Shown: positions 2,188 to 64,000 of the stretch, piece by piece
Layout of the letters: every line of letters starts with the position of its first letter
How positions within the stretch are numbered: position 1 is the stretch's first letter
Position numbers and translations under genes: made by a program
NCBI GenBank assembly: GCA_037974665.1
Contig: CM075764.1
Location: 81,677,825-81,741,824, forward strand
Direction of reading: 5' to 3'
Length of the DNA: 64,000 bases
Origin: Ehretia macrophylla
Lineage: Eukaryota; Streptophyta; Magnoliopsida; Boraginales; Ehretiaceae
Notes under the pieces: model-generated
What the model saw: only the letters and a program-made list of their open reading frames with translations
Told to the model about the DNA's origin: nothing
Databases searched by the model: none

Positions 2188-2212
2188 TGAGTATACATGT
2201 GTTGTATACTCA
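2188..2212 (+). promoter_or_regulatory. Conserved LTR hairpin (RE1 copy)
   Basis: TGAGTATAC, a 7-nt loop, then GTATACTCA form a perfect 9-bp stem. It follows CCCTCAC and precedes a pyrimidine-rich stretch ending in an AG acceptor-like site near 2235. The 3' LTR copy is at 63598-63622 with small changes. Equivalent hairpins occur in every LTR family of the window with different stem sequences. Confidence 0.7.
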
Positions 2213-2845
2213 CCCCTCTTTCTAATCATCTCAAGTTCGGGTCCTTCAGAGATTAAGAAGAAGAAGTCTAGTTGGTTAATTGCCTTGACTTGTTGCTTAC
2301 TGAGGTGGGATGGCTTGTGTGAAGAATGTGATGTTGTCATGTATATGTTCTATTTTGAGACGTTTGGTCTTGTATGTATTTGTTTATTATCTTGGAGGAT
2401 TGTAATAGTTAGTGTGTTGATGCATAGTTTGGGTCGTAGTGGCATGTAATAACTTTAACTTTGCTTTATTGTTAATATTGCATGCTTGTGTGGTCAGTGA
2501 AGGTTAGTTGGTTGGTTGGACTGAAATTATAAGTAAGTTTAATTGAAAATGTTAGAGTGGTAAGATAAGTTGATTAAAAAGATAAGATTTCAATGGTTTT
2601 AACTTTGCATGCTTGTGTGTTTATAATGTCTTGTCTTGCTTAAGGCTCGGATGGCCATGAAGTTGGGAGAAGTTGTGGAGTTGAAGTTGGAGTATGTTGT
2701 AGAATGTGGTTTATGACTTTATTTTCTGTGAGCAAGTAAACTGATAGTCCTATAAACAGGGAAAACTCCATCCATTTTTCCTCGTTTTTCGTGACCTTGG
2801 GTTTTGGATCGGGGCTCCGGTCTTGTAAGGGATCGAGGTATTACA

Positions 2846-3360
2846 AGTGGTATCAGAGTGTAGTTAGCTCTCAGCCAGGATATGATCCTCAATCTGTTGG
2901 GTAACAACCCTTGAATGTGTGCTTGTGAAATGTGTCTTGAGAATGTGTGTGCTTGTATGTGAAATTGTGTATCTTAAAATGAATGTGTGCGCCTATGTGA
3001 TATAGTTGTGTGTTATGAGCTAAATGTGTGTCAAGTGAAGTGAAGTGGCTAATCGTGAAACAAAGTGACTCGACTCTATGGATTGTTACATGCCTGAACT
3101 TTTGATTGTCATGTGTGTATTTGAGTGTCTTGGAATAAGTTGTGTTGTGATTTGTATTAGTTGTGTTCTGATTTGTGTTTGAATTACTTTGTCGATTAAC
3201 TGGTTTCTATAAACTCTTTTATAATCTTGGTTGCATGATAGCTTAGAGAATATTTGTATATATGTGATATCCTGGCATTCATGCATAACCCGTTGAAATG
3301 GTAAGAAATTTTCTTCCTCCCCCTGAAGTGAGGTATTAGTAGCAGACATTCCGTTATGTG
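2846..3360 (+). mobile_element. RE1 internal region, left part, with primer-binding site
   Basis: Begins with the primer site TGGTATCAGAGT at 2848-2859, two bases after the LTR, complementary to the 3' end of initiator tRNA-Met. It is followed by GTGTGCTTGTG-rich low-complexity sequence and by a block (about 3265-3360) that is recognisable in RE3 and RE9 internal regions on the other strand. No gag-like protein is present. RE2 interrupts it after ATGTG at 3356-3360; the internal region resumes at 38772. Confidence 0.85.
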
Positions 3361-5817: not shown

Positions 5818-8406
5818 TGTAACACCCTGATCCCTCTCGAGACTAGGAGTTCTATTAATCAATCTAATCGCAACCCAATTCCAAACCCGACATAAAATTT
5901 AGGGAAAGATGGACGGAGTCTCCCCTATTTCTAGGCAAAAAACAAACCTGCGACAACATATAAGTGGACTAGCACCGTGTCCAACCATTCAAAATTCCTC
6001 AAGGCCATCCAAGCCTCGGTTCTCAACAATTAGACACAACAAGTATATATATACATTTCCAAGTACCCAGACTACTCTAACTCTTTTCTTTACACAATAC
6101 AAACATGCATTGAAATTAAACTATACTAACTGAATACATAAACTAACTTATCATACCACTTCAATAATCTAGTTAAACTTAAATTACATTCCTTTTAACA
6201 CTAAATACATACATTACATGAAAATATACATCGCATGAAAGTAAAATCTTTACATCTTTGACAACTCAAGCCACATAGCATGCAAGGCAACTCTTCAAGC
6301 ACGATCTATCACATAACCACGAACTTTCCAGCTAACATGGTATTTCCTGAAATATGGTGGTGAGGGGTGAGTATACACAACACGTATACTTAGTGAGGGC
6401 GGAACAGATATCGAGGTGGAGAGAAAGAAAGTCGTGCAATGCAAATAAGACAGTTAAGCAATATATCCAATAAGAACAACAATCAATATAATCAGCAATA
6501 CAATAACAATTAAAGAAGACATTAACACAACCAGTCAAAGCTATACCACACTTCAAAGGCTATGGTTCACTCATACGAGCAATGTACCATTTCACGAGCG
6601 ATACATCAATCTTGAGCTTGATGTTGACAACGATGACAATAAGCGCGCAACCACCTTATAACTTCCACTGGGTGTACTCCGGATGTATCCCGACACATCT
6701 ACGACCCAAATCTCCTAGGGCGGCATCCCTAGCAAGAATGGGAATAGGACACGGAGCTAGAGCAACCCAACCTTGGCAGCCTGAGACTGCCCAGAGAGGC
6801 CCATCACTCACACGCCTGACACTATGCAATGCAATACGAGATACAAGCAATAAACGAGTGATAGCACGAAAGTGCAGATTAGTGGCGATATACGAGATAT
6901 TAAACATTTAAAATCAATATTAGCATTCAATTAACTTTTCAAGCATGATTATCATTAACATCAACAAGAACATCAATTAAACACGTAATAGCAGTTCAAA
7001 CACGAAAACGACAATATCACTATTTAATCTCTAGCTTCCAAAGGCAATTATGAGCAAATGAGCTACGAGATTAAGAAACCGATTTCACTACCTTTACTTA
7101 GGCACTACAAGGCACGTTCCTATGTCACGAAACTTCACTTTCCCAACCGAAGCCCAAAAGTCCACCTACTACGTTTGAACTACAGCTATGCCAACCGGAC
7201 ACTCAATCAACGCCACAACAGCGCCAAAAGTGCTTCCATGCCCTCAATAGCAAAACCCCCAACTCAATTCAAGCACGGTCAAACTTGGTCAAACGGCCCC
7301 TTTACGTTTCTTTGTCTAATTTTCAATTTTAACAAAGGGCGGTCCGTTTTTATTGCACATTTTATCTTTCTAACATTAATGGCACCTATCCAAATCAAGA
7401 AATCGCAATTCGGATCAAAAATCCAAAAATCTAGGGTTTTACTATTCAAAAACACTATTCATTATTCTTCCCCAATTTCAATTTGCGTTTCTAGCCATAA
7501 AAATTACTAAATAACTATCAAACAATGCTCTACGATCATTATAGAACCTAATTCAAACAACAAAAGGCATTTAAACACAATATAAAACAAATCTAAGAAA
7601 TTGAAACCAAAATTCAAATTTCATTAAAAATGCATAAAAGCGTAAAAACCCTCACAGAGATTGAAGGAGAGGACTCGCAAGAACCCTAGCCACGATCGTC
7701 GTCCAATTCCACGCAATATTGCACAAGAAAAATGGAAGCAAAATTCTTTTTTTTTCTTTGGGAGTTTCGGCCATGGGGGGGGGGGATACAAAGGGAATTT
7801 TGGGTTTTGTTTGTTTTGATTTTTTGCCTTGTTTTATTTTTAAAAGATGACAAAGGGCATTTTGGTCTTTTGCAAAATCAAGCTTAAGTGAAAATATGGT
7901 CAAACTAACTTATTTTGATGTCATTTAATCTAATTCAAGTTAAAACAATGCAATTTAATGCAAATCAACTAAAAACCAATTAAATAAAACTAGAAGTACT
8001 ATTCACAAAATCCGAGAAATATTTCTCTAACTCTCGTTTTTTATGCGCTTCAATCAAACGGTCAATAAACGATCACTATTAGAATGATAAACAATTTCGT
8101 AAAAAATATAATTTTTGAAAAGTAATTTAGTTTAAAATTCACTCTAGCTCAGAGTTACTTTTCCATTTTGTTGAAAATAAATTAATTTAAGTGCAATAAA
8201 ATAAATCCAAGTTTTGAAAACAATCAAAATTGTTGATATTCATTTAAAATAATCAATTCAAATATCATTTGAATAGCTTTGAAGAAATAGAAAATTATTA
8301 CTAGAAATGAATGTTTAACTGAAAATAAACATGAAATTCAATGCTATCATTTAAGATAACAATTAACTAAATGCAATTAAATGTGTGCTGGGTTCGAGGT
8401 ATCACA
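5818..8406 (-). mobile_element. RE3 left LTR (3' LTR in sense)
   Basis: Copy of 10046-12648. Carries the hairpin at 6368-6392, the palindromic block at 6669-6708, and the GTGAGGG donor-like motif (minus strand) near 7650. A run of G residues around 7776-7784 is a length-variable homopolymer. Several short open stretches here are duplicated in the other LTR and show no recognisable domain. Confidence 0.9.
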
Positions 8407-10043: not shown

Positions 10044-10045
10044 CT

Positions 10046-12648
10046 TGTAACACCCCGATCCCTCTCGACACCGGGAGTTCTATTAATCAATCTAATCGCA
10101 ACCCAATTCCAAACCCGGCATAAAATTTAGGGAAAGACAGATGGAGTCTCCCCTGTTTCCAGGCAAAAAGCAAACCTGCGACAGCATATAAGTGGACCAG
10201 CACCGTGTCCAACCATTCATAATTCCTCAAAGCCATCCGAGCCTCGGTTCTCAACAATTAGACACAACAAGTATATATATACATTTCCAAGTACCCAGAC
10301 TACTTTAACTCTTTTCTTTACACAATACAAACATGCATTGAAGTTAAACTATACTAACTGAATACATAAACTAACTTATCATACCACTTCAATAATCTAG
10401 TTAAACTTAAATTACATTCCTTTTAACACTAAATACATACAATACATGAAAATATACATCTCACGAAAGTAAAATCTTTACATCTTTGACAACTCAAGCC
10501 ACATAGCACGCAAGGCAACTCTTCAAGCACGATCTATCACATAACCACAAACTTTTCAGCTAACATGGTATTTCCTGAAATGTGGTGGCGAGGAGTGAGT
10601 ATACACAACACGTATACTTAGTGAGGGCAAAACAGATATCGAGGTGGAGAGAAAGAAAGTCGTGCAATACAAATAAGGCAGTTAAGCAATATATCAAATA
10701 AGAACAACAATCAATATAATCAGTAATACAATAACAATTAAAGAAGACATTAACACAACCAGTCAAAGCTATTCCACACTTCGAAGGCTATGGTTCACTC
10801 ATACGAGCAATGTACCATTTCACGAGCGATACGTCAATCTCGAGCTTGATGTTGACAACGATGACAATAAGCGCGCAACCACCTTATAACTTCTACTGGG
10901 TGTACTCCGGATGTACCCCGACACATCTACGACCCAAATCTCCTAGGGCGGCATCCCTAGCAAGAATAGGAATAGGACACGGAGCTAGAGCAACCCAACC
11001 CTGGCAGCCCGAGACTGCCCCGAGAGGCCCATCACTCACGCGCCTAACACTATGCAATGCAATATGAGATACAAGCAATAAACGAACGATAGCACGAAAG
11101 TGCAGATTAGTGGCGATATACGAGATATCAAACATTTACAATCAATATTAGCATTCAATTAACTTTTCAAGCATGATTATCATTAACATCAACAAGAACA
11201 TCAATTAAACACGTAATAGCAGTTCAAACACGAAAACGACAATATCACTATTTAATCTCTAACTTCCAAAGGCAATTACAAGAAAACGAGCTACGAGATT
11301 AAGAAACCGATTTTACTACCTTTACTTAGGCACTACAAGGCACGTTCCTATGTCACGAAACTTCACTTTCCTAGCCGAAGCCCGAAAGTCCACCTACTGC
11401 GTTTGAACTACAACTATGCTAACCAGACACTCAATCAATGCCACAACAGCGCCAAAAGTGCTTCCATGCCCTCAATAGCAAAACCCCCAACTCAATTCAA
11501 GCACGGTCAACACTTGGTCAAACGGCCCCTTTACATTTCTTTGTATAATTTTCAATTTTAACAAAGGTCGGTCCATTTTTATTGCACATTTTATCTTTCT
11601 AACATTAATGGCACCTATTCAAATCAAGAAATCGCAATTCAAATAAAAAATTCAAAAATCTAGGGTTTTACTATTTAAAAATACTATTCATTATTCTTCC
11701 CCAATTTCAATTTGCGTTTCTAGCCGTAAAAATTGCTAAATAACTATCAAACAATGCTCTACGATCATTATAGAACCTAATTCAAGCAACAAAAGGAATT
11801 TAAACACAATATAAAACAAAATTAAGAAATTGAAACCAAAATTCAAATTTCATTAAAAATGCACAAAAGCGTGAAAACCCTCACAAAGATTGAAGGAGAG
11901 GACTCGCAAGAACCCTAGCCACGATCCTCGTCCAATTCTACGCAAGATTGGACATGAAAAATGGAAGCAAATTTCTTTTTTTTTTCTTTGGGAGTTTCGG
12001 CCATTGGGGGGAGGGGGATACAAAGGGAATTTTGGGTTTTGTTTGTTTTGATTTTTTGCCTTGTTTTATTTTTAAAAGATGACAAAGGGCATTTTGGTCT
12101 TTTGCAAAATCAAGCTTAAGTGAAAATATGGTCAAACTAACTTATTTTGATGCCATTTAATCTAATTCAAGTTAAAACAATGCAATTTAATGCAAATCAA
12201 CTAAAAACTAATTAAATAAAACTAGAAGTACTATTCGTAAAATCCGAGAAATATTTCTCTAACTCTCATTTTTTATGCGCTTAGATCAAACGGTCAATAA
12301 ACGATCACTATTAGAATGATAAACAATTTCTTAAAAAATATAATTTTTGAAAAGTAATTTAGTTTAAAATTCACTCCGGCTCGGAGTTACTTTTCCATTT
12401 TGTTGAAAATAAATTAATTTAAGTGCAATAAAATAAATCCGAGTTTTGAAAACAATCAAAATTGTTGATATTCATTTAAAATAATCAATTCAAATATCAT
12501 TTGAATAGCTTTGAAGAAATAGAAAATTATTACTAGAAATGAATGTTTAACTGAAAATAAACATGAAATTCAATGCTATCATTTAAGATGACAATTAACT
12601 AAATGCAATTAAATGCTATTAAATGCATGCTGGGTGAGGGGTATCACA
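10046..12648 (-). mobile_element. RE3 right LTR (5' LTR in sense)
   Basis: Sense start at 12648, sense end at 10046. Contains in sense order an AT-rich TATA-like stretch near 12070, the donor-like GTGAGGG at about 11884, the palindromic block 10897-10935, the hairpin 10596-10620 and an acceptor-like TTTCAG|G near 10575. The distance from donor-like to acceptor-like site is about 1.3 kb. Confidence 0.9.
10596..10620 (-). promoter_or_regulatory. Conserved LTR hairpin (RE3 copy)
   Basis: Arms 10596-10604 (TGAGTATAC) and 10612-10620 (GTATACTTA) around a 7-nt loop; eight of nine positions pair. The left LTR copy is 6368-6392. It lies inside GTGAGGG...CCTCAC-type flanks, as in the other families. 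Confidence 0.65.
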
Positions 12649-12812: not shown

Positions 12813-13205
12813 GAGGTATAAGGAGTTTGTCGGCATTTGCTTCAAGATCATGGTTCGTGGTTCGAGATCAAAGACAAGGAAGATGAATCGTATCCTTTTT
12901 ACACTTGTGATATTCATTTATTAATTTTCTATTCAATTTGAGTTCTATTTGTCGATACATGGTTATTTCGTTAATGGATTATATTCCTATATTTGTTATT
13001 TGTATACTTGCATGCTTTATAGTTGTGTGCTTGTACGCTATTTACTTCGTGTGTTTGTGTACTATCTTGACCGTACATTTGTGTGCTTGGATGTTATCTA
13101 AACTCATGTATTATATAGTCTTGTATGCTTGTGTGTTATATAGTTACTATTTGCATTGAACGAAATACTTTTGAAAACTCCCCTTTATATGTATCCTCCC
13201 TCACT

Positions 13206-13227
13206 GGGCATATGTGGTTGTATGCTT
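13206..13227 (+). promoter_or_regulatory. Conserved LTR hairpin (RE2 copy)
   Basis: GGGCATA, an 8-nt loop, then TATGCTT: five Watson-Crick pairs plus two G-U pairs at RNA level. The 3' LTR copy (38141-38162) reads GGGCATA and TATGCTC. The stem sequence is unlike that of RE1, RE5 or RE6, yet pairing is kept. Confidence 0.6.
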
Positions 13228-13836
13228 ACCCTTCTTTCTAACACCTTTCAGGTTCAACACCTTCAGAAAAAATGCAGGAAAGCTCGGGAGTTTATGTGAT
13301 TGGAAGTGTTAGCTTCCATGGATTGTAAATATGTAACTATATATGGTTTTGTATGTATTTATGTTACTGTGGAGGTATTTGTATTGTAAAGCTTAAGTAT
13401 TGTGGAAACTGATAGTGATAGGTGTCTTGTAATAACTGAATAGTTACCTTACCGCTTGGTAGTCTTGCATGCTTGTCTGAGGTTAATGCAGTTGATTGAA
13501 GGACTTAATAAGTAAGAAAATTGAATAGATAATATTAGAGTGGTATGATAAGTGAACTTAAGAGATAAGATTTTGATGGATTTTAACCTTGCATGCTTGT
13601 ATGTTATAATATTGGGTTCCAAGGCTTGGATGGCCTTGAGAAGTTTGTTGTATGTATTGACATTGGAGGACGGTATTGTATGTTGGAGTTGGGTTGTGGT
13701 TTTGAGGATTAATGTATTGTTTATAGGTAAACTGATAGTCCTATAAACAGGGGAGACTTTTTCCGTTTCCCCTCATTTTTCGTGACCTCGAGTATTGGAT
13801 CAAGGCTTTGGTCTTGTAAGGGATTGGGGTGTTACA

Positions 13837-17630: not shown

Positions 17631-18765
17631 TGTCACGCCCCAACTCGACCCCACCTACGATCAGTCAAGACGCAACGAAATTTTGGCAGTATAACGACAG
17701 TAAATAGGATACCGAGGCTCTAAACCAACTTCCTTAGAACATCATACATCAACTCCATAACCATACAATAAACAACTCCTCAATAAAATAACAACATACA
17801 ACATAACCATATTACACCATAATCATTCTTTGTTATATGCCTCTGTTCCAACATAATACTTAAACTTTAATGTACATTACAAAACATATTGATAACAACC
17901 TAGCAACCTAAGCATAGACAAAAGAAAGACTACTAAGTTAGCTTCATTTAGATCATCATCTTTTCAACATCTTTTACATTATGAACTGCAAAGCATATAA
18001 AAGTTTACTAAGTTAATATACAAGATAGTAAAACAATACAACATCAAGGATAAGACTCCGGAATATAAGACTCATCCACGTAAGGCACATTTTCCTCTTC
18101 AGGAGACACGTACCCGTAGTCCTGCTCTACAACACCTGTAAGCATGCAATAATAGAGAGTGAGCTTATATAAAATAAGTCCAGCGAGGATCCGATAGATC
18201 TCTAACAGTATTCACTATACTCCTTGGAAATAATCATTTGACAAGTAAACACACAATAACATCAATAATACTATCATCACATAATCTATAATGACCATTC
18301 AATAAAGGATATACTAGTTAGTGTAGCTCTGAATGCCATCACGATCATAACAACCTTCTTGTGACTCCCATAAACTCACGCACCCGAGGTACCCCAATAA
18401 CCTCTCCCTCCATGACACCTCTGTCATGCGAGTTGGAGGTAGTCTCTGGTAGTCATGCCGTTATCAACCCGACAGCTCGATGCTGCCCGAGAGGCGGCAC
18501 ACACATACCAAAGACTCAACAATAATAATAAACACCAATCATTCACAAGAGGACAACCTTTTCCGTTGACTATCTCCCGGTTCATTAATCATCAATCAAT
18601 AATCATCAATAATCATATTATCATCATAATAACATCAATAATCAATTTAACAACAAATAACTAAGTTAGATGACAAAGTAGGTCATCCAACTGAACATGC
18701 ATTAAACACACAATCAAATCCTAGTTTACCCATCAACAACTCACAATTCAATCACTCAAACCACA
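17631..18765 (-). mobile_element. RE4 left LTR (sense 3' LTR), first part
   Basis: Copy of 35117-36250. Contains the hairpin 18160-18182 and an acceptor-like TTACAG|G (minus strand) near 18136. Interrupted by RE5 after CCACA (18761-18765). A clear ATCCGGA palindrome, present in the other families, is not seen here. Confidence 0.9.
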
Positions 18766-21256
18766 TGTCACGCCCCGACCCAACCCCCGAGCTAAAGGCT
18801 AAGTCCGGACCCGACACACGGACAGAGTCTCCCCTGTACCGTGGACATTCTGAAAACCTGTAAACTCTCAAATAAGATAACCACAAGATAAACAAGCTTT
18901 TCATGGCTAAAGATTTAAAGATTCAAGGCCATCCGAGCCTTGAAGCAACAACAGTTCCAAAACCACACAAGCATGCAAGTAACTTTGTTTACAACATAGA
19001 CTATTAGCCATGACATTCTAGGATATCAATAAAACATAATTAAAAGATAAAACATTTCTACTTTAAGCCATTCACTCCCAAGCATGCAAAGGAAATAAAA
19101 GCATAAATAAAAGTTATTACAAGACATAGGTTCCCAAATCTACACTACAACCAACTATCATTCAACTTCTTACAACAACCAACATAAACATAGCCCTTAG
19201 GCCACAAAATAGATACACAAGTACCAAATAGAAACAAGAAGGCACACCCACCTCAGGACAACACACAACAACTAGGGCAAAGGCTCTATCTGCACCTCTT
19301 CCTCCTCCACTACTACCTCAACAAGCTGGGGATCACCCACAGCGTCTCCTAAAATATATATCGAGGTATGAGCAACCACTGTTGCCCAGTGAGGGATATA
19401 GTCCCGGGGCGTGCAATGTAACAGGTAATACATTTAAACAACAATAACAATTAGACAATTAAAGAAACAATGATAGCTTAAATAACCACACATTTAAAAG
19501 GATATATTTCACATAACGCCTATACACCAATCTTCATTGAGTCTTCATTCACGATCCACGAACCATGAGCACGATCACGATAAGCCGACATAACCCCAAA
19601 CACTCCAGTGGGTGTACTCCGGATGTACCCCGATAATCCTACGACCCAACATCCCCTGGAAATCTCCGGACTAGGCGAATGAGGGACTAGGGCACGGAGT
19701 TTGAATATCCACCGGCAAGCCCTTTGCCGCCCAGCCGATATTCAACACATCCGCCCCTAACACTATGGTTGCGCTAACACTATGCAATGTACTTTACAAT
19801 GACAAGTTAATATCAATAATATAAGCAATAACACATAGGAGGATCAACAAAGTAGGTTGACCTTGATGCAGTTAGAATTGAAATAATTATATAGGCAAAT
19901 AAGTAGTTTTACAAAGGGACATATACAAGATAAGCATAGAATCATACCAAATGCTCCAAATCAACTTGAAACCACATATAAACACCCAAGAGGTCATGCC
20001 AAGGGCTCAGAAGCACGAGTCAACCGAAATTGCACTTAAACCCCTTTATTTTTCACACTATTTCTCTTCCAAACCAAAGTTAATGATTCAAATTCAAAGG
20101 GAAGCTATACCAATCTTCTAACTAACCCTCAAGGAACCCTTCCAACCCTCAAACTCATACAAATGCCCGCGATTTCCCCGAAAGCCCCAAATTCCCTCTT
20201 ATAGTCTTAAACTATACATACCTCATCCGGGCTTCAAACAAGGGTTAGCAAACCTTCTATAGCACCTAGGTAGTCTAAGGATACTAAAAGTGAAGCCTGA
20301 ATCTACCCGGATTCGCATTAACCCCGAAACCCCTTTATTAAAGTCGACTATTTTACGTTTTATGCTATTTTAGAGCAATTCAAGTGCGCGGGGCTTTTAT
20401 ACTACCTTCATTAGCACCTAAGGCTTCTATTAGGAGTGTTGAATCAAGCGAATTCGAGAAATTGCACAAAACCCTAGAAAAAATGTCACTATTCACCTCC
20501 TAAATCAAACTAACGATTCTAACCGTTTAAAAATCGAAACGATGGCTCAAATATGTTCTTTAGCATTCATATACAAGGTATAATAGCATAGATAATCAAT
20601 ACAATAGCATTTGAACACATTTTCAACAAATCAAGAAAATAGCAACTATTTAGAAATGCAAAAATAAGCCGTGAAATCCCTCATCAATGCGCGTAGGAGC
20701 ACCTAGGAACCTTGCACACACCCTAATCCACTTGCTCAAGGCTTGGAGAGGCTTGGATTGAAGGATTGAAGAGCAAAATTTATTTTTTTCTCCTGTTTTC
20801 TGCTGTCGGCCTTTCCTGCTTCTATTTCAGCTTTTTATTATTTTTTTTCTTGCATTATATGAGCTTATAAGGCTATATATTGACTAAGCTAGGGTGGGGT
20901 CTTGTTTGGGTGCTTAAGTGGTCTAATATAATGCGCTTAGTAAGCTTAAAACGAGCCTAAAGTGAAGGATGTGAGCTAGCTAATTAAATCTCCAAGTTAG
21001 TTACGTAATACTATTCATTCAACTACAAAAATCATTTTCTAAACGAGCTCTCCCATCGCCTCTAGCTCAATTGCACATTTTTTCCATTACTCTAACAATT
21101 AATATGATTTAATAAAAATGCTAATTCGCTAATAGAATGAAGTTAAAAAATGGAGTGAATAGTAGTTAAAGAAGGCAATTAATAAAGCACGGAAGGAAAT
21201 GCGCAAACAAGGGATGCAACAGTAATTGAATGCATGGCTAAATCTCGGGCGTCACA
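18766..21256 (-). mobile_element. RE5 left LTR (sense 3' LTR)
   Basis: Starts TGTCACGCCCCGACCC and ends ...GGGCGTCACA in plus coordinates. The hairpin is at 19369-19388, the palindromic block at 19609-19648, and a TATATAGC-like TATA region (minus strand) near 20870. Same length as the right LTR. Confidence 0.95.
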
Positions 21257-40690: not shown

Positions 40691-41701
40691 TTTTTGTTAA
40701 ATCTGACAGCTCACTGCCTTAAGTTTCTTTTGCATATTAAAAATAGTAAACGATCTCAGAATCGATCAAAAATTTCAAAGTAGCTATATTAGGTAGTAAG
40801 AACAACTTTTGTATTTTACAAAATGTCAGATTCCATCGTTTTAAATAGCTGAATTTTCCATTTTCAAAATAACACCAGAATAGTCTTCAATCTCGACAGT
40901 CAAGACATGGATGCATTAAATTGGTTTTAACTCTGTCAATTTAGATCAGAATTGAGCTTTTCTTGATTCTATAATTATTTATACTTGAATATCTTTAATT
41001 CTATACCTAATTCGAATAATTTAGAGTTTGGGAAGATAGGTTACTGATTAGCTAAAATTAGGCTAATATAGTGATGTAAACATTGTTTTAAGTCAATAAG
41101 TTAAGCTCTAATGTAAATTGCTATTGATTGAATGACTAAGTACTTGGGTTATTAATGTGTAGTGTTATTATATGATCTCTATATGTGTTAGAATGTTTGT
41201 GAAGACATTAATTTGAATTGTATTATTTGATACTTGTGAATTACTCGATATGCTATAAATGATTGTAGTACTTGAACTTGAATTTGAATTAGTGTCAAAA
41301 GGGGTTGCAACCACCTAGTCTTGGCATGGTAGTGTGCATACTACGCTGGACATCCTTGGGGTGTCGGTGATCTTATGTCTACCATGGTCCGTATTCCCCT
41401 CTCGCTCGGGAACTTTGATTTCCTTAAAGAATCGGATCGTAGAATTCGAGTATTATCCGGAATACTCTATTTGGGTGAGATAAGGAATGAGATGTTGAAA
41501 ATCTCAGTTACTATTGCTTGAATCAGACTCGTTTGTAAAGAGTAAATTGTTTCTTACTACGTATGTGATATATGACTTGAATACGTATACTTGAATTATT
41601 TCTTGATTGCATATCTTGCTTGCATTGCATCCACGGATTTACGAAAAGGTTTATGAAAAGGAAAAATTGTATTTGAAAACCCTTCCCAAATTCTCCCTCG
41701 C

Positions 41702-41726
41702 TGAGCTTAGTGTTGTTATAAGCTCA
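41702..41726 (+). promoter_or_regulatory. Conserved LTR hairpin (RE6 copy)
   Basis: TGAGCTTA, a 9-nt loop, then TAAGCTCA: a perfect 8-bp stem. The 3' LTR copy (52794-52818) has one mispair. It follows CCCTCGC and precedes a CCCCCTTTCAG|G acceptor-like site by about 20 nt. Confidence 0.65.
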
Positions 41727-42383
41727 CCATCTTTGTTCCCCCTTTCAGGCAATGAGGAGAGGTCTGTAGAATACTGTGAGAATAATCCTCAGCATACTGG
41801 ACCAGAAGTGCCCGATACGTGATATACACCTCTCTTAGGTATATTATTGACTTAGATGACTTGAACAATTAAATGTATATATTATTTTGTGTATATGGAT
41901 AGTTTTAATATCATGTTCTTGTATAAGTGAACTAACTTAGTCATTGGTCATAATTGGTCAAGGAATTGGTTTAATGACTTAGTTAGCCATTATTCAAGTG
42001 ACTCACGTAGCCGGTTTTATTTTTGGGCACTTGGCTACATATCGCCTATTAGAAGGTAATTTGGATGTGGTTAAAACCTTATCTTAATGCAAGTAACATA
42101 TGTATATTTTTATGTTGAACTTCTAATTGATTATATCATGTTGGTGAATGAATGAATTACATTAGAGTTTTGAATTGTGATGTTGGGAGGAGTAGATGGT
42201 GGCTTTTTTGTTTACAGATTGAAGGAAGAAAAAAACTGTTTTGTCCACCGTACAGTTGTTATGCTGCCCAATTTTCGAGAAAACAAATAATAAGTTGAAA
42301 ATTTTAACTAAGTATGGATTGGTAATTGAATTAACGGTTACCCTCGGACTTGGTCCTACGCAGGTTGGGTTCGGGGCATGACA

Positions 42384-45126: not shown

Positions 45127-47898
45127 TATAACACCCCGATCCCTCTTGAGACCGGGAGTTCTATCAATCAATCTAATTGCAACCCAATTCCAAACCCGAG
45201 CATAAAATTTTAGGAAAAATGGACGGAGTCTCCCCTGTTTCTAGGCAAAATGCAAAACCTGTGACAGCATATAAGTGGACCAGCACCGTGTCCAACCATT
45301 CACAAATTTTTAAGGCCATCCGAGCCTCGGTTCTCAACAATTGAACACAACAAGTATATATACATTTTCAAGTACTCAGACTATTCTAACTCTTTCCTTT
45401 AGACAATACCATCATGCATTGAAGTTAACTATACTAATTGGATATATAAACTAGCTTATCATTCTACCTCAATTACCTAGTTAAATTTAAATTACATTCC
45501 TTTTAACATTAAATACATACAACACATGAAACATACGTCTTTGCATCTTTGACAATTCAAGCCATATAGCACGCAAGGCAACTCTTCAAGCACGATCTAT
45601 CACATATCCACGAACTTTCCAGCTAACATAATATTTCCTGAAATGTGGAGGTGAGGAGTGAGTATAGACAACACGTATACTCAGTGAGGGCGAGACAGAT
45701 ATCGAGGTGGAGAGAAAGAAAGTCGTGCAATGCAAATAAGGTAATTAAGCAATATAACTGACATGTAAGCAATCAATATAAACAATCAATACAATAAACA
45801 ATTAATAAAAGCATTAACACAACCATTCAAAGCTATACCACACTTTGAAGGTTATGGTTCACTCATACGAACAATGTACCATGCGATTCGATTCCACGAG
45901 CATTACATCAATCTCGAGCTTGATGTTGACAACAATGACAATAAGCACGCAACCACCTTATAACATCCACTGGGTGTACTCCGGAAGTACCCCGACACAT
46001 CTACGACCCAAATCTCCCAGGGCGGCACCCCTAATGAGAATGGGAATAGGACACGGAGCTAGAGCAACCAACCCTGGCAGCCCGAGACTACACAGAGAGG
46101 CCCATCACTCACACACCTGACACTTATGCAATGCAATACGAGATACAAGCAATAAACGAGCAATAGCACGAAAGTGCAGATTAGTGGCGATAAATGAGAT
46201 AACAAGCATTTACAATCAATAATAACAATCAATTAACTTTTCAAGCATGATTATCATTAATATCAACAATAACATCGATCAAACAAGTAATAGCAGTTCA
46301 AACACGAAAACGACAAATATCTTCATTCAATCCCTAACTTCCAAAGGCAATTACGAGCAAACGAGCTACGGGATTAGGAAACCGATTTCACTACATTCAC
46401 CTAGGCACTACAAGGCACGTTTCTATGTCACGAAACCTCACTTTTCCAACCGAAGCTCGAAAGTCCACCTACTACGTTTGAACTACAGCTATGCTAACCG
46501 GTCATTCATTCAACGCCACAATAGCGCCAAAAATGCTTCCATGCCCTCAATAGCAAAACCCCCAACTCAATTCGAGCACGGTCAACACTTGGTCAAACGG
46601 CTCCTTTACGTTTCTTTGTCTAATTTTCAATTTTAACAAAGGTCGGTCCGTTTTTATTGCACGTTTTATCTTTCTATCATTAATGGCACCTATCCAAATC
46701 AAGAAATAGCAATTCGGATAAAAAATCCAAAAATCTAGGGTTTTACTATTCAAAAACACTATTCATTATTCTTTCCCAATTTCAATTCGCATTTTCAGCC
46801 GTAAAAATCCCTAAATAACCATCAAACAATGCTCTACGAACTCAAAGGAAGTTATATCAAGCAATTATAGGCATTATAACACAATATATATCAAATCTAA
46901 AAATTTGAAACAATAATCAAATTTCACAAAATATGCACAAAAACGTGAAAACCCTCACAGAGATTGACGAAGAAGACCTGCAAGGACCCGAGCCACGACC
47001 CTCGAGTAATTTCACGCAAGATTGGAGAAGAAAATGCAAGCAAAATTCTTTCTATTTTGGCCCTTGAAGTTTCGGCCAAGGGGGGGACAAAATGGGCATT
47101 TATGAATTTGTTTTGTTTTGATTTTTGCCTTTTTTATTATTTAAAAGGTGACAAAGGGCATTTTGGTTATTTTGCAAGATCAAGCTTAAGTGAAAATATG
47201 GTCAAACAAGCTCATTTTGATGGCATTTAATCTATTCCAAGTTAAAACAATGCAATTAAATGAAAAACAACTAAAACTAGTTAAATTAAGCTAAAAACAT
47301 TTTTCACTAAGTCCGAGGAATATTTCTCTAACTCTCATGTTCAAAATGCTACGATCGAACGGTCAATAAACGATCGCTAATCAAATGATGATCAATAATA
47401 TAAAACTATAATTTTTGAAAAGTAGAATAGTAGAATAGTAGAATAGTTTAAAATTCACTCCGGCTCGGAGTTACTATTCTCATTTAATTGAAAACCAAGT
47501 AATTTTAATGCAAGAAAATTAAAACCGATTATTAAAATAATCAAAACAATCAAAATAATCAATATTCATTTAAAAATAATTAATTTAACTATTTCTAGAA
47601 TATTTTAAAGAATTATGAAATTAATGTTAAGATACAAGTGAATAAGTTAATATAAACACGTAATCAGATGCAATTAAATACTAACATTTAAGATGACACT
47701 TAATTAAACACAAGAAAATAAATCTAATTACTATAAACAATAAAATAGGTAATAATCTTTTAATTAATCAATATAAAAATTATTGAATGCTTTTAAAAGA
47801 AATATCAAAATAGTGCAAAAATGGATGATTAACTAATTAAACAATTAATTAAATGTAGTCAAATGCTATTAAATACATGCCGGGTTTGGGGTATCACA
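45127..47898 (-). mobile_element. RE7, solo LTR of the RE3/RE9 family
   Basis: A single 2,772-bp LTR, TATAACACCCC...GGGGTATCACA in plus coordinates, with no partner or internal region. It is flanked by ACGGA (45122-45126) and TCGGA (47899-47903), a target-site duplication with one difference. Solo LTRs arise by recombination between the two LTRs of a full element. The hairpin is at 45659-45683 and the palindromic block at 45971-46009. Confidence 0.88.
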
Positions 47899-50541: not shown

Positions 50542-50542
50542 T

Positions 50543-51790: not shown

Positions 51791-53473
51791 AATTTTTTGT
51801 TAAATATGACAGCTCACTGCCTTAAGTTTCTTTTGCGTATTAAAAATAGTAAATCAAACGAAACTTTCACAGTAGTTATATTAGGTAGTAAGAAACAACT
51901 TTCGTATTTTACAAAATGTCAGATTCCATCGTTTAAATAGCTGAATTTTCCATTTTCAAAATAACACCAGAATAGTCTTCGATCTGGATAGTCAAGACAT
52001 GAATGCATTAAATTGGTTATAACTCTATCAATTTAGATCGGAATTGAGCTTTTCTTGATTCTATAATTATTTACATTTGAAGATATTTAATTCTATACCT
52101 AATTCGAATAATTTAGAGTTTGGGAAGATAGGTTACTGATTAGCTAACGTTAGGCTAATGCAGTGATGTAAACATTGTTTTAAGTCAATAAGTTTAGCTA
52201 TAATGTAAATTGTTATTGATTGAATGACTAAGTACTTGGGTTATTAATGTGTAGTGTTATTATATGATCTCTATATGTGTTAGAATATTTGTGGAGATAT
52301 TAATTTGAATTATATTGTTTGATACTTGTGAATTACCCGATATGCTATAAATGATCGTAGTACTTGAACTTGAATTTGAATTGGTGTCAAAAGGGGTTGC
52401 AACCACCTAGTCTTGGCATGGTAGTGTGCATACTACGCCGGACATCCTCGGGGTATCGGTGATCTTATGTCTACCATGGTCCGTATTCCCCTCTCGCTCG
52501 AGAACTTTGATTTCCTTTGAGAATCGGATCGTAGGATTCGAGTATTATCCGGAATACTCTATTTGGGTGAGGTAAGGAAGGAGATGTTGAACATCTCAGT
52601 TACTATTGCTTGAATCAGACTCGCTTGTAAAGAGTAAGTTGTTCCTTACTACGTATGTGATATATGACTTGAATACGTATACTTGAATTATTTCTTGACT
52701 ACAGATCTTGCTTGCATTGCATCCATGGATTTACGAAAAGGTTTATGAAAAGGAAAAATTGTATTTGAAAACCCTTCCCAAATTCTCTCTCGCTGAGCTT
52801 AGTGTTGTTATAAGGTCACCCTCTTTGTTCCTCATTTCAGGCAATGAGGAGAGCTTTGTAGAATATTGTGAGAATAATCCTCAGCATACTGGACCGGAAG
52901 CGCCCGATACATGATATACACCACTCTTAGGTGTATTGTTGACTTAGATGACTTGAACAATTAAATGTATATATTATTTTGTGTATATGGATAGTTTTAA
53001 TATCATGTTCTTGTATAAGTGAACTAACTTAGTCATTGGTCATAATTGGTCAATGAATTGGTTTAATGACTTAGTTAGCCATTATACAAGTGACTCACGT
53101 AGCTGGTTTTGTTTTTGGGTAGTTGGCTACGTGTCGACTATTAGGATGTAATGTGGATGTGGTTAAAACCTTCTCTTAATGTAAGTAACAGATGTATATT
53201 TTCATGTTGAACTTCTAATTGATTATATCATGTTGGTGAATGAATGAATTGCATTGGAGTTTTGAATTGTGATGTTAGGAGGAGTAGATGGTGGCTTTTC
53301 TGTTTACAAATTGAAGGAAAAAAAACTATTTTGTCCACCGTACAACGATTATGCTGCCCAATTTTTTAGGAAACTAATAATAAGTTGAAAATTTTAACTA
53401 AATATGAATTAGTAATTGAATTAACGGTCACCCTCGGACTTAGTCCTATGCAGGTTGGGTTCGGGGCATGACA

Positions 53474-56306: not shown

Positions 56307-59151
56307 TGTAACACCCTGATCCCTCTCGAGACCGGGTGTTCTATCAATCAATCTAATCACAACCCAATTCCAAACCCGGGCAAAGTTTTTATGGAAAGAC
56401 GGACGGAGTCTCCCCTGTTTCTAGACAAAATGTAAAACCTGTAATAGCATATAAGTGGACCAGCACCATGTCCAACCATTCAACCACCTCAAGGCCATCC
56501 GAGCCTTGGTCTCAACAAGCGAACATAAGTAAATATATATTTCCAGTTTAAAAGCTAACCTCATCTTTGACAAGTACATTCATGCTTGGCAATTAAACCA
56601 TACTAACATATTGCATAACATAGACTATCATACCATTCTAACTCTTTTCCTTTAGACATTACAAACATGCATTTAAGTTAAACTATACTATCCGAATACA
56701 TAAACTAGCTTATCATACCACTTCAATAATCTAGTAAAACTTAAATTACGTTTCTTTTAACATTAAATCCATACAACACATGAAACATACATATTTGCAT
56801 CTTTGACAACTCAAGCCACATAGCACGCAAGACAACTCTTCAAGCATGATCTTTCACGTAATCACGAACTTTCCAGCTAACATGGCATTTCCCTGAAATG
56901 TGGTGGTCAGGAGTGAGTATTCTCAACACGTATACTCAGTGAGGGCGAGACAGATATCGAGGTTGAGAAAAAGAAAGTTGTGCAATGCAAATAAGGCAGT
57001 TAAGCAATATATCTGACAAGTAAGCATTCAATATAAACAATCAATACAATAAACAGTTAAAGAAAGCATTAACACAACCATTCAAAGCTATACCACACTC
57101 TGAAGGCTATGGTTCACTCATACGAACAATGTACCATGCGATTCGATTCCACGAGCATTACATCAATCTCGAGCTTGATGTTGACAACGATGACAATAAG
57201 CGTGTAACCACCTTATAATATCCACTGGGTGTACTCCAGAAGTACCCCGACACATCTACGACCCAAATCTCCCAGGGCGGCACCCCTAGCGAGAATGGGA
57301 ATAGGACACGGAGCTAGAGCAACCAACCCTGGCAGCCCGAGACTACCCAGAGAGGCCCATCACTCACGCGCCTGACACTAATGCAATGCAATATGAGATA
57401 CAAGCAATAAACGAGCAATAGCACGAAAGTGCAGATTAGTGACGATAAATGAGATATCAAGCGTTTACAATCAATAATAGCAATCAATTAGCTTTTCAAG
57501 CATAACTATCATTGATAGCAACAAGAACACTAATTAAACAAGTAACAGCAGTTCAAACACGAAAATGACAAATATCACTATTCAATCTCTAACTTCCAAA
57601 GGCAATTACGAGCAAATGAGCTACGAGATTAGGAAACCGATTTCACTACATTCACTTAGGCACTACAAGGCACGTTTCTATATCACTAAACTTCACTTTC
57701 TCACCCGCGGCCCGAAAGTTCACCTACTGCGTTTGAACTACAACTATACTAACCGGTCGCTCAATCAATGCCACAACAGCGCCAAAAGTGCTTCCATGCC
57801 CTCAATAGCAAAACCCCCAACTCAATTTGAGCATGGTCAACTTTTGGTCAAACAGCCCCTTTTCGTTTCTTTGTCTAATTTTCAATTTTAACAAAGGCCG
57901 ATCCGTTTTTATTGCACATTTTATCTTTCTAACATTAATGGCACCTATCCATATCAAGAAATCGTGATTCGGATCAAAATCCGAAATTCTAGGGTTTCAC
58001 TATTCAAAATCACTATTTATTATTTTTTCCCAATTTCAAATACGCAATTTCAGCCTTAAAAATTGCTAAATAACTAACAAGCAATGCTCTACGAACTCAA
58101 AGGAAGCTATATCAAGTAATTATAGGCATTATAACACAATATATATCAAATCTAAAAATTTGTAACAATAATCAAATCCAAATAAAAATGCACAAAAACG
58201 TGAAAACCCTCACAGAGATTGAAGACCAAGACCCGCAAGGACCCGAGCCACGACCCCCGAGCAATTCCACGCATGATTGTAGAAGAAAATACAAGCAAAA
58301 TTCTTTTTTTTTTCTCCTTGGAGCATTCGGCCAAAGAGGGGACAAGATAGGCATTTTGCAATTTGTTTTTTTTTTTATATTTTTGCTTTGTTTTATTATT
58401 TAAAAGGTGACAAAGGGCATTTTGGTCATTTGTAAAATCAAGCTTAAGTTAAAAATGGTGAAATAAACTTATTTTGATGCCATTTAAATCTAATTCAAGT
58501 TAAAACAATGCAATTAAATGAAAAACAACTAAAACTAGTTAAATTAAGCTAAAAACATTTTTCACTAAGTTCGAGAAATATTTCTCTAACTCTCATTTTC
58601 AAAATACTACGATCAAACGGTCAATAAATGATCGCTAATAAAGTGATGACCAATAATATAAAACTTTAATTTTTTTGAAAAGTAGAACAGTAGAATAGTT
58701 TAAAATTCACTCCGGCTCGGAGTTACTTTTCTCATTTAATTGAAAACCGAGTAATTTTAATGCAAGACAATTAAAACCGATTATTAAAATAATCAAAACA
58801 ATCAAAATAATCAATATTCATTTAAAAATAATTAATTTAACTATTTCTAGAATATTTTAAAGAATTATGAAGTTAATGCTAAGATACAAATAAACAAGTT
58901 AATATAAACACGTAATCAAGTGCAATTAAATATTAACATTTAAGATGACATTTAATTAAATACAAGAAAGTAAATCAAATTTCTTTAAATAATAAAAATG
59001 GGTGTTAATCTTTTAATTAATCAATATAAAAATTATTGAATGCTTTTAAAAGAAATATCAAAATAGTGCAAAAATGAATGATTAACTATTTAAACACTTA
59101 ATTAAATGCAGTCAACTGCTATTAAATGCATGCCGGGTTCGGGTTATCACA
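56307..59151 (-). mobile_element. RE9 left LTR (sense 3' LTR)
   Basis: TGTAACACCC...GGGTTATCACA. Hairpin 56914-56938, palindromic block 57227-57264, donor-like GTGAGGG (minus strand) near 58212. Open stretches in it are LTR sequence without domains. Confidence 0.92.
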
Positions 59152-60585: not shown

Positions 60586-63439
60586 TGTAATACCCCGATC
60601 CATCTCGAGACCGGGAGTTCTATCAATCAATCTAATCACAACCCAATTCCAAACCCGGGCAAAATTTTTAGGGAAAGACGGACGGAGTCTCCCCTGTTTC
60701 TAGGCAAAATGTAAAACCTATAATAGCATATAAGTGGACCAGCACCTTGTCCAACCATTCAACCACCTCAAGGCCATCCGAGCCTTGGTTCTCAATAAGC
60801 GAACACAAGTAAATATACATTTCCAGTTTAAAAGTTAACCCATCTCTTCTCATCTTTGACAAGTACATTCATGCTTGACAATTAAACCATACTAACCTAT
60901 TGCATAACATAGACTATCATACAATTCTAACTCTTTTCCTTTAGACATTACAAACATGCATTTAAGTTAAACTATACTATCCGAATACATAAACTAGCTT
61001 ATCATACCACTTCAATAATCTAGTAAAACTTAAATTACATTTCTTTTAACATTAAATACATACAACACATGAAACATACATCTTTGCATCTTTAACAACT
61101 CAAGCCACATAGTACGCAAGACAACTCTTCAAGCATGATCTTTCACGTAATCACGAACTTTCCAGCTAACATGGCATTTCCCTGAAATGTGGTGGTGAGG
61201 AGTGAGTATACTCAACACGTATACTCAGTGAGGGCGAGACAGATATCGAGGTTGAGAAAAAGAAAGTCGTGCAATACAAATAAGGCAGTTAAGCAATATA
61301 TCTGACAAGTAAGCATTCAATATAAACAATCAATACAATAAACAGTTAAAGAAAGCATTAACACAACCATTCAAAGCTATACCACACTCTGAAGGCTATG
61401 GTTCACTCATACGAGCAATGTACCATGCGATTCGATTCCACGAGCATTACATCAATCTCGAGCTTGATGTTGACAACGATGACAATAAGCATGCAACCAC
61501 CTTATAACATCCACTGGATGTACTCCGGAAGTACCCCGACACATCTACGACCCAAATCTCCCAGGGCGGCACCCCTAGCGAGAATGGGAATAGGACACAG
61601 AGCTAGAGCAACCAACCCTTGCAGCCCGAGACTGCCCAGAGAGGCCCATCACTCATGCGCCTGACACTAATGCAATGCAATATGAGATACAAGCAATAAA
61701 TGAGCAATAGCACGAAAGTGCAGATTAGTGACGATAAATGAGATATCAAGCGTTTACAATCAATAATAGCAATCAATTAGCTTTTCAAGCATAACTATCA
61801 TTGATAGCAACAAGAACACTAATTAAACAAGTAACAGCAATTCAAACACGAAAACGACAAATATCACTATTCAATCTCTAACTTCAAAGGCAATTACGAG
61901 CAAACGAGCTACGGGATTAGGAAACCGATTTCACTACATTCACTTAGGCACTACAAGGCACGTTTCTATATCACTAAACTTCACTTTCTCACCTGAGGCC
62001 CGAAAGTCCACCTACTGCATTTGAACTACAACTATACTAACCGGTCGCTCAATCAATGCCACAACAGCGCCAAAAGTGCTTCCATGCCCTCAATAGCAAA
62101 ACCCCCAACTCAATTCGAGCACGGTCAACTTTTGGTCAAACGGCCCCTTTTTGTTTCTTTGTCTAATTTTCAATTTTAACAAAGGCCAATCCATTTTTAT
62201 TGCACATTTTATCTTTCTAACATTAATGGCACATATCCAAATCAAGAAATTGCGATTCGGATCAAAATTCAAAATTCTAGGGTTTTACTATTCAAAATTA
62301 CTATTAATTGTTTTTCCCCAATTTCAAATACACAATTTCAGCCATAAAAATCGCTAAATAACTAACAAGCAATGCTCTACGAACTCAAAGGAAGCCATAT
62401 CAAGCAATTATAGGCATTATAGCACAATATATATAAAATCTGAAAATTTGTAACAATAATCAAATTCAAATAAAAATGCACAAAAACGTGAAAACCCTCA
62501 CAGAGATTGAAGACCAAGACCCCCAAGGACCCGAGCCATGACCCCCGAGCAATTCCACGCATAATTGTAGAAGAAAATGCAAGCAAAATTCTTTTTTTTT
62601 TCTACTTGGAGCATTCGGCCAAAGAGGGGACAAGATAGGCATTTTGCAATTTGTTTTTTTTAATATATTTTTGCCTTGTTTTATGATTTAAAAGGTGACA
62701 AAGGGCATTTTGGTCATTTGCAAAATCAAGCTTAAGTTAAAAATGGTGAAATAAACTTATTTTGATGCCATTTAAATCTAATTCAAGTTAAAACAATGCA
62801 ATTAAATGAAAAATAACTAAAACTAGTTAAATTAAGCTAAAAACATTTTTCACTAAGTTTGAGAAATATTTCTCTAACTCTCATTTTCAAAATACTACGA
62901 TCAAACGGTCAATAAATGATCGCTAATAAAGTGATGAGCAATAATATAAAACTTTAATTTTTTTGAAAAGTAGAATAGTAGAATAGTTTAAAATTCACTC
63001 TGACTCGGAGTTACTTTTCTCATTTAATTAAAAATCGAGTAATTTTAATGCAAGACAATTAAAACCGATTATTAAAATAATCAAAACAGTCACAATAATC
63101 AATATTCATTTAAAAATAATTAATTTAACTATTTCTAGAATATTTTAAAGAATTATGAAGTTAATGCTAAGATACAAATAAACAAGTTAATATAAACACG
63201 TAATCAAGTGCAATTAAATATTAATATTTAAGATGACACTTAATTAAATAAAAGAAAGAAAATCCAATTTCTATAAATAATAAAAATAGGTGATAATCTT
63301 TTAATTAATCAATATAAAAATTATCGAATGCTTTTAAAAGAAATATCAAAATAGTGCAAAAATGAATGATTAACTATTTAAACACTTAATTAAATGCAGT
63401 CAAATGCTATTAAATGTATGCCGGGTTCGGGTTATCACA
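60586..63439 (-). mobile_element. RE9 right LTR (sense 5' LTR)
   Basis: Donor-like GTGAGGG at about 62501 (minus strand), palindromic block 61512-61553, perfect hairpin 61203-61227, acceptor-like TTTCAG|G near 61182. Donor-like to acceptor-like distance is about 1.32 kb. Confidence 0.92.
61203..61227 (-). promoter_or_regulatory. Conserved LTR hairpin (RE9 copy)
   Basis: TGAGTATAC (61203-61211), a 7-nt loop, then GTATACTCA (61219-61227): a perfect 9-bp stem. The left LTR copy 56914-56938 and the RE7 copy 45659-45683 each carry minor mispairs. Confidence 0.7.
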
Positions 63440-64000
63440 TGGAGGGCTAAGGGTTATTGATTGTATCCTTTTAAAATGTGAAGTACTATATTGTTAATTG
63501 TTCATCTACTTGTATAGATATTGTTCCTTGTAATTATATGTCCCATTGCACGAAAATATTTTCAAAAACCTTCCCGGATAATTGTTCCCTCCCTCACTGA
63601 GTATACATGTGTTGTATGCTCGCCCCTCTTTCTAATCATCTCAGGTTCGGGTCTTTCAGAGATTAAGAAGAAGAAGTTCAGTTGGTCAATTGCCTTGACT
63701 TGTTACTTACCAGGGTAGGATGGCTTGTGTGAAAAATGTGATGTTGTCATGTATATGTTCTATTTTGAGACCTTTGGTCTTGTATGTATTTTTTTATTAT
63801 CTTGGAGGATTGTAATAGTTAGTGTGTTGATGTATAGTTTGGGTCGTAGCGGCATGTAATAACTTTAACTTTTCTTTATTGTTAATATTGCATGCTTTTG
63901 TGTGGTCAGTGAAGGTTAGTTGGTTGGTTGGACTTAAATTATAAGTAATTTTAATTGAAAATGTTAGAGTGGTAAGATAAGTGGATTAAAAATATAGGAC
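63440..64000 (+). mobile_element. RE1 3' LTR, third part (continues beyond window)
   Basis: Resumes with TGGAG and matches about 2031-2595 of the 5' LTR. The hairpin is at 63598-63622 and an acceptor-like TCTAATCATCTCAG|G has AG at 63643-63644. By comparison with the 5' LTR, roughly 250 bp of the LTR remain to the right of the window. Confidence 0.9.

Follow-up and report, generated by a model that had tools for sequence, protein, structure and literature searches.

A small hairpin recurs at one equivalent position in the long terminal repeats (LTRs) of the nested Ty3/gypsy elements of a 64,000-nucleotide (nt) stretch of the Ehretia macrophylla genome (assembly GCA_037974665.1, contig CM075764.1, positions 81,677,825 to 81,741,824 of the forward strand; hereafter the window), and the question that it raises is what such a structure is kept for inside an LTR. 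An earlier reading of the letters alone (the sequence-only reading) had proposed a hairpin conserved through compensatory stem changes and selected at the RNA level. What is new relative to that account, which named no function, is the setting of the hairpin: a 3′ splice-site context and a coding tail beside it. As judged from the sequences analyzed here, the hairpin is probably the structured 3′ end of an intron, with an acceptor in the LTR that would open a short terminal exon encoding, in the majority of sampled families and in phase 1, a conserved, mostly acidic C-terminal tail of ~20-32 residues.

The window LTRs, ~2.4-2.9 kb long, contain 15 homologous hairpin sites, all at one equivalent LTR position, which in the five LTRs measured lies ~560-690 nt from the LTR end. 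The motif CCTCRCT (CCTCATT in single copies) stands directly 5′ of the hairpin. The arms reported earlier are present at every one of their coordinates, and the proposed hairpin is indeed found at the same relative place in the long LTRs of the window, a few sites having a mismatch; the RE2 arms GGGCATA/TATGCTY are there too, the stem extending one base further on each side (13205-13228 and 38140-38163). Imperfect stems occur in RE3 and RE4a (A·C mismatch) and in RE6b (G-G), and shorter ones in RE7 (8 pairs) and RE9a (7 pairs). The sites are:

2188..2212, + strand: RE1 hairpin, arms TGAGTATAC/GTATACTCA; candidate acceptor at 2234, CAAG and not CAGG in this copy
6368..6392, - strand: RE3a hairpin, one A·C mismatch; candidate acceptor end 6347
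10596..10620, - strand: RE3b hairpin, one A·C mismatch; candidate acceptor end 10575
13205..13228, + strand: RE2a hairpin; candidate acceptor end 13251
18160..18182, - strand: RE4a hairpin, one A·C mismatch; candidate acceptor end 18136
19369..19388, - strand: RE5a hairpin; candidate acceptor end 19349
26883..26902, - strand: RE5b hairpin; candidate acceptor end 26863
35646..35668, - strand: RE4b hairpin; candidate acceptor end 35622
38140..38163, + strand: RE2b hairpin; candidate acceptor end 38186
41702..41726, + strand: RE6a hairpin; candidate acceptor end 41748
45659..45683, - strand: RE7 hairpin; candidate acceptor end 45638
52785..52860, + strand: RE6b hairpin region, one G-G interrupting the stem; acceptor-like CAGG after it
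56914..56938, - strand: RE9a hairpin; candidate acceptor end 56893
61203..61227, - strand: RE9b hairpin; candidate acceptor end 61182
63598..63622, + strand: RE8 hairpin, second copy of the RE1 family; candidate acceptor end 63644

Covariation was analyzed in 36 sites, ten from the window and 26 from loci fetched from the window's own genome (1,579,978,469 bases, 20 contigs), the single source of all fetched LTRs. The ten window rows had been chosen as hairpin-bearing, either by the sequence-only reading or by a six-pair filter; 19 rows were retrieved with patterns that prescribe most of the outer stem, and the other seven were taken from fetched loci via looser patterns. Pairs 1-4 are partly given by construction, and pairs 5-8 were not demanded by the patterns except for the base class at position 5. 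Loci L001-L030 are near copies of one family, and all other hairpin loci come from contig 1. In the 36-row alignment 93.8% of the cells are paired, as against 78.0% (standard deviation 1.9) upon shuffling, the covariation score is 0.503 as against 0.235, and two-sided changes are present in 53 cells as against 26.9 (0/500 shuffles for each measure), kinship among rows being a possible source of inflation. The inner pairs 5-8 alone gave 88.2% paired cells versus 56.4%, and a score of 0.850 versus 0.310 (0/500 shuffles). Two of the five pair-counting measures did not rise above the shuffles in either test: pairs with a two-sided change numbered 4 (4.1 in shuffles) in the 36 rows and 4 (4.0) in the inner stem, and further pair types 14 (13.1) and 11 (10.0), respectively. 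When the 3′ arm was slid by 1-3 columns, only 27-44% of the cells paired. Across the 36 sites, pair 5 is C-G in 24, U-A in 7 and U-G in 4; pair 6 is A-U in 17, U-A in 16 and U-G in 2; pair 7 is A-U in 17, U-A in 13, C-G in 4 and U-G in 1; pair 8 is unpaired in 14. RNAalifold recovered the same stem unprompted from 27 of the 36 rows, an alignment that omits, among others, the worse-pairing L004 and L041a; the covariation figures cited here use all 36 rows.

Swapping of 5′ arms among the 36 sites, a set that is not fully structure-blind, lowered the pairing from 8.17 to 6.55 of 9 pairs (0/5000), and swapping among the 21 distinct 5′ arms lowered it from 8.05 to 6.47 (0/5000). The blind version used 30 flank clusters retrieved with CYTCRYT...YAGG; a hairpin was not required, and word matches that are unrelated were retained. 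The effect was smaller yet positive (6.33 versus 5.60 of 9 pairs, 6/5000), and 14 of the 30 clusters reached at least 8 of 9 pairs. The stem thus covaries across sites with strong statistical support, and the compensatory changes proposed from the window alone are borne out in this larger set of sites, arm swaps and blind clusters.

The stem also stands out from its flanks. The mean folding energy of 34-nt windows, calculated for 31 of the 36 sites, has its minimum at the hairpin (-8.75 kcal/mol), the 140 nt before it ranging from -1.5 to -2.6 kcal/mol; other low-energy zones lie 150-300 nt upstream (-3.8 to -6.2) and at +40 to +60 (-5.0 to -5.5). The stem formed in 30 of 31 sense folds, the exception being L041a, and L004 formed five pairs only. 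With regard to the strand, pairs 1-8 of the 30 distinct arm pairs (240 cells, with the L083 arm misplaced) comprise 200 Watson-Crick pairs, 22 G·U, 3 A·C and 15 others. As a sense G·U would read A·C on the other strand, the sense RNA seems to be the form that is kept, in agreement with the earlier proposal of selection at the RNA level. The sense fold is not always the more stable one: mean fold z was -2.32 for sense and -1.16 for antisense, and of 31 sites the sense fold was more stable in 15 and the antisense in 12, with 4 equal. Selection on the sense strand is therefore supported mainly by the G·U bias and by the splice-site context described below.

The hairpin recurs far beyond the window: patterns built on it have tens of thousands of matches across the genome; these totals are matches and not elements, nested gap matches being counted repeatedly. 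The pattern CCTCRCTGRGV-gap-CTCAY-gap-CAGG gave 14,685 + 16,096 matches versus 0 + 3 for the reversed pattern, and its TGAGT-type sister pattern 16,290 + 26,027 versus 38 + 59. The hairpin-free pattern CCTCRCT-gap-TTNCAGG gave 23,776 + 23,879 versus 255 + 285; of ~100 places listed for it, 11 lacked the hairpin when counted by eye. Among these listed matches, those with CCTCGCTTTGCC..., CCTCGCTGTGCC... and CCTCGCTTGTGGGG... have no hairpin and appear unrelated by eye. An abundant repeat with CCCTCACTGCAATRGRCTGTTTTCTCACAATCATTGAG (G000, e.g., C1:3473685-3473722, - strand) carries the word CCCTCACTG and no such stem. In locus L041, two hairpin-acceptor sites (1221 and 2249) are separated by ~1 kb, and one pair is broken in the first of them.

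What follows the hairpin is a pyrimidine-rich, AG-poor stretch and then a 3′ splice-site-like CAG|G. From the end of the 3′ arm to this AG there is a median of 22 nt, 76% pyrimidine, in the 36 sites, a spacing survey in which the RE1 acceptor is misplaced (the CAAG copy) and L013, L041a and L044 were given late ends. No AG intervenes between 3′ arm and acceptor in 32 of the 36 sites, and upstream control 24-mers are 57% pyrimidine and AG-free in 139 of 256. The base before the AG is C in 31 sites and T in 5, a pyrimidine here being by construction, as YAG was the motif sought. In 35 of the 36 sites the 3′ arm terminates in YTNAY (CTCAC, CTCAT, CTTAC or CTTAT, with the variable base at N), although the arm locator admitted only CT followed by a pyrimidine, then A or G, and then another pyrimidine. 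YTNAY is the branch-point consensus. A branch-point motif, a pyrimidine tract, AG exclusion and YAG|G are thus found together, the branch-like motif and YAG having also served as locators. The hairpin region may accordingly be described as having the form of a 3′ splice site, with the branch point possibly locked in the stem.

The sequence beyond the putative acceptor was then considered as an exon. Frames were counted in 27 sites (RE1 acceptor misplaced; L043 and L044 acceptors ambiguous), and phase 1 is the longest frame in 19 of them (18/26 without RE1), the median lengths being 9 residues (phase 0), 22 (phase 1) and 2 (phase 2). Aspartate plus glutamate make up at least 20% of the residues in 15 of the 20 tails of at least 15 residues, and many of the tail peptides are acidic and alike across families of differing DNA (DAEGDPQLVDLVEEEEVQIEPLP, EAEVNPQLIEEEEVYVDQNP, VVEADPLEVIEEEEQVEVFP, EEEHAQEPELNVPNDEPLE and VVEQDYGYVSPEEENVPYVDESYVPESYP). 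The ratio of nonsynonymous to synonymous differences per site (pN/pS) was 0.20-0.44, hence below 1, in five partly overlapping groups (2-6 sequences each, genomic copies of mixed age), and the inner gaps in these groups are all 3, 9 or 12 nt, that is, multiples of three. By these comparisons, with most sites sharing one phase, the tail is under purifying selection and the predicted exon is coding in several families. Within the window, predicted tail exons are:

26786..26862, - strand: RE5b tail exon, phase-1 frame, 24 residues + stop
35530..35621, - strand: RE4b tail exon, phase-1 frame, 29 residues + stop
41749..41822, + strand: RE6a tail exon, phase-1 frame, 23 residues + stop

A gag-pol region together with the tail was found only in RE5, RE4, F1 (L031/L082/L087) and the TTCATAAGG family (L081/L088). 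RE5 pol scored above cut-off for RVT_1, RT_RNaseH, Integrase_H2C2 and SH3_Tf2-1, with rve below it; Chromo gave E values of 0.0014 and 0.0022 in F1 and RE5, below the Pfam cut-off. This order (reverse transcriptase, RNase H, integrase with a Tf2-type SH3 and a terminal chromodomain) is that of Tekay/Del elements. The motif TGGTATCAGAGC, which we take to be the primer binding site for initiator methionine tRNA (tRNA-iMet), adjoins the 5′ LTR in 4 of 5 elements (RE3, RE4, RE5 and RE6), and RE9 has an altered form. Domain order and primer binding site are consistent with the label of Tekay/Del chromovirus (Ty3/gypsy). Rfam 15 gave 0 matches in the window at gathering score. The RE5 gag-pol frame (21257-26279, - strand) is interrupted: gag contains stops, and protease and pol are in different frames. 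Elsewhere in the genome, some protease loci are part of open frames of 1,541-1,606 residues.

An acceptor needs a donor, and three kinds of candidate were compared, scored with a rough plant 5′ splice-site matrix to which all scores are relative:

28192..28198, - strand: RE5b leader donor candidate D1, GTGAGGG, ~1.3 kb upstream of the acceptor
40020..40026, + strand: RE6a leader donor candidate D1, AAG|GTGAGGG
62495..62501, - strand: RE9b leader donor candidate D1, GTGAGGG
58213, 46958, 11884 and 7655, - strand: starts of further GTGAGGG motifs
24645..24650, - strand: RE5 gag/protease-boundary donor candidate DG, GAAG|GTATTT, phase 1
33498..33503, - strand: RE4 gag/protease-boundary donor candidate DG, GAAG|GTAACT, phase 1
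21292..21297, - strand: RE5 pol-end donor-like motif D2, CAT|GTAAGAATT

D1 lies at the end of a 5′-untranslated-region-like stretch, 1.0-1.8 kb upstream of the acceptor. GTGAGGG is present in 17 of 31 sites versus 1 of 31 for its reverse complement, and GTGAG[AG]G in 21 of 31 versus 2, counts in which several sites belong to one family. The coding part of the tail cannot come from D1: the phase-1 frame of leader exon 1 is stop-broken in most copies and unconserved, and the donor of L031 is immediately preceded by a stop. We also discarded the idea that the GC-rich LTR block holds a middle coding exon, there being a two-base indel between close copies and no shared phase-1 donor; the block looks structured rather than coding. 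As to DG, in 248 aligned columns of RE5, RE4, F1 and the TTCATAAGG family, covering the end of gag and the protease only, the VE|G position (GAAG|GTA) is the sole column with a phase-1 GT and a positive donor score in all four families; phases 0 and 1 were scanned, and phase 0 gave no such column. The Gly codon of DG is GGT in 16 of the 16 readable among 20 fetched loci (many of them close copies), unlike the two other invariant Gly codons of the four-family alignment, which vary there. The junction is always G|GN, hence glycine and never a stop. This phase-1 donor candidate would be in frame with the acceptor exon, though ordinary coding constraint could also preserve it. Given that the acceptor is used, DG would be the likeliest partner of the tail, an assignment for and against which we find the case about evenly balanced. 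D2 was rejected as a general source of the tail because of its phases 0 and 1 and a T|GA stop; the donor-like GTAAGAATT does end pol just after the chromodomain in several families (21297 and 30125, - strand, and genome-wide).

A second hairpin (HP2) lies ~250 nt upstream of the first, within the D1-acceptor interval, with variable arms, as in GGGTAC-AUCCGGA-GUACCC. In RE6a its arms were read off the sequence:

41448..41467, + strand: RE6a second hairpin HP2, GAGTATT-ATCCGG-AATACTC, inside the predicted D1-acceptor intron

Of the 20 placeable sites (32 looked at), 17 have the exact loop palindrome UCCGGA, in a survey whose locator allowed one mismatch and misplaced RE3a, RE6a (by one base) and L043. 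Upon arm swapping among 13 distinct arm pairs, the observed pairing was reached in 16 of 5000. In Ty3, an extract on the DS/PAL6 element describes a short hairpin, located in the 5′ part of the RNA, whose apical portion holds a palindrome (PubMed Central, PMC11381356). HP2 resembles PAL6 in its palindromic loop, as of a kissing-loop dimerization site, and differs in the loop, UCCGGA, and in its location in the LTR. We regard HP2 as a candidate dimerization site inside the predicted intron; if it is one, only unspliced RNA would dimerize.

The structured-intron-end reading can be put together as follows. The acceptor inside the LTR would be used; the stem would sequester the branch-point-like CTNAY of the 3′ arm and slow splicing. 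A retroelement must leave some of its RNA unspliced, and such a brake would spare enough genomic RNA to be packaged and reverse-transcribed. The acceptor of the 3′ LTR, joined to the gag/protease donor at VE|G, would yield a Gag-only mRNA with an acidic tail, and that of the 5′ LTR could be taken by the leader donor GTGAGGG. The persistence of the stem in tail-less families is in keeping with a brake, which would be required as long as one RNA carries both D1 and the acceptor. In Arabidopsis, according to a passage of PMC7784297, single-strandedness of the branch site accompanies splicing and the choice among 3′ sites.

Several observations weigh against this explanation. Processed copies of spliced RNA were not found for the three junctions probed in the genome (0 copies; one family each, exact or near-exact patterns, a weak probe). 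Phase 1 is not the longest frame in 8 of the 27 sites, tails have 0-9 residues in L039, L043-L046 and L048, and they are non-acidic in RE2a, RE9b, L032 and L041. As the short-internal families RE3 and RE9 (internal regions ~1.4-1.6 kb) retain the stem without a clear tail, the hairpin cannot serve the tail alone. Several families have a CTAAC/TTAAC/TGAC-like motif ~11 nt 5′ of the AG, and the branch point may therefore lie outside the stem. With regard to the donors, 10 of 31 sites lack GTGAG[AG]G in the interval searched, AT-rich 7-mers equal or exceed the frequency of D1 (up to 20/31), and DG is weak (2.0-4.7, against 7.6 for CAG|GTAAGA, by the rough matrix).

Four other explanations were weighed. 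The hairpin might promote splicing instead of slowing it: lying between an upstream branch point (CTCAC) and the AG, it would shorten the distance between them, as proposed for yeast introns, whose stem-loops are cited in a passage of PMC7784297. CCTCAC does stand before the stem in many families, but in many others the motif is CCTCGC, which has no branch A, and an arm-to-AG distance of ~22 nt needs no shortening; we consider this role unlikely. The acceptor might, in turn, serve pol, D2 GTAAGAATT joining the LTR exon and replacing the C-terminus behind the chromodomain. The best donor-like score near the pol end, CAG|GTAAGA in F1 (7.6 by the rough matrix), D2 being in frame with the tail in RE4-type elements and the TTCATAAGG family, and 1,146 + 1,210 genome matches of a pol-end pattern containing GTAARAATT (0 reversed; a measure of abundance, not of use) all speak for it. 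The phase, however, is not kept (phase 0 in F1 leads to E-stop, and RE5 has a T|GA stop), only two of the four families fit, the D2 motif also codes for pol, and the one such junction probed in the genome, in the TTCATAAGG family, gave 0 copies. This arrangement, too, appears improbable.

The two remaining explanations dispense with splicing. One is a role of the hairpin within the genomic RNA (in packaging, in translation or in forming the RNA end in the R region), the nearby splice signals being separate from it. That short-internal families without a clear tail retain the stem, and that a second hairpin with a palindromic loop lies ~250 nt upstream, would suit such a role; the close, rather constant spacing of the acceptor and the doubling of the 3′ arm as a branch-point consensus would be left unexplained, and we attach a low probability to it. 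The other is a palindrome at the DNA level (a cruciform, a protein-binding site or an insertion target). Read as DNA, most stems are near-palindromes as well, and LTR retrotransposons are reported to target palindromes often (PMC6911290). Against this, the sense strand has 22 G·U and 3 A·C pairs and pairing is kept though loop and stem length vary, which makes a DNA-level function very improbable.

If the structured-intron-end reading is true, a potential 3′ splice site with a stop codon behind it is present in very many LTRs of this genome, a matter of consequence for the effects of insertions on host genes, and the hairpin may help to set the share of element RNA that is cut or left whole. 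The reading also bears on how one-frame plant Ty3/gypsy elements produce Gag in excess of Pol and separate the RNA to be translated from the RNA to be packaged, which to our knowledge has been explained in a minority of lineages at most. A wider proposal can be put forward tentatively, one that we consider possible though rather doubtful: single-frame Ty3/gypsy elements would obtain excess Gag by splicing the gag/protease donor to an acidic-tail/stop exon in the 3′ LTR, the branch-point hairpin would set the ratio, and the dimerization hairpin of the leader intron would restrict packaging to unspliced RNA. Splicing solves the problem of Gag excess for some Ty1/copia elements, and the acceptor-like site in the LTR makes the Ty3/gypsy question directly testable.

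Among the matches listed from the open-licence PMC literature, titles and abstract beginnings hold no description of the stem or of an LTR-encoded tail exon. Splicing is spoken of in an extract on Ogre elements (PMC6317226), and Tekay elements are absent from the expressed set of sunflower in the extract of PMC7730604. In the Ty1/copia elements EVD of Arabidopsis and BARE1 of barley, alternative splicing separates a Gag-only mRNA from the unspliced gag-pol RNA, according to parts of PMC8892269 and PMC3735527. The likeness to shGAG and BARE1 is that of a splicing-derived Gag-only mRNA, which was demonstrated in EVD and BARE1 and is predicted in the present elements. These are Ty3/gypsy, unlike EVD and BARE1; BARE1 removes 104 nt inside the open reading frame, and in the extracts on EVD and BARE1 there is no mention of a tail exon encoded in the LTR or of a covarying acceptor hairpin. 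In the Ty3/gypsy element Cer1 of Caenorhabditis, a passage on the CERV protein describes a spliced mRNA whose product shares some peptides with GAG in its N-terminal half, its C-terminal part being an open reading frame near the 3′ LTR, with one verified acceptor, TTTCAG (PMC10309623). As compared to CERV, the exon predicted here lies inside the LTR and comprises ~20-32 codons. In retroviruses such as HIV-1, splicing-regulatory stem-loops keep 3′ splice sites weak. The stem at the putative LTR acceptor would be alike in tuning the ratio of spliced to unspliced RNA, a resemblance without homology.

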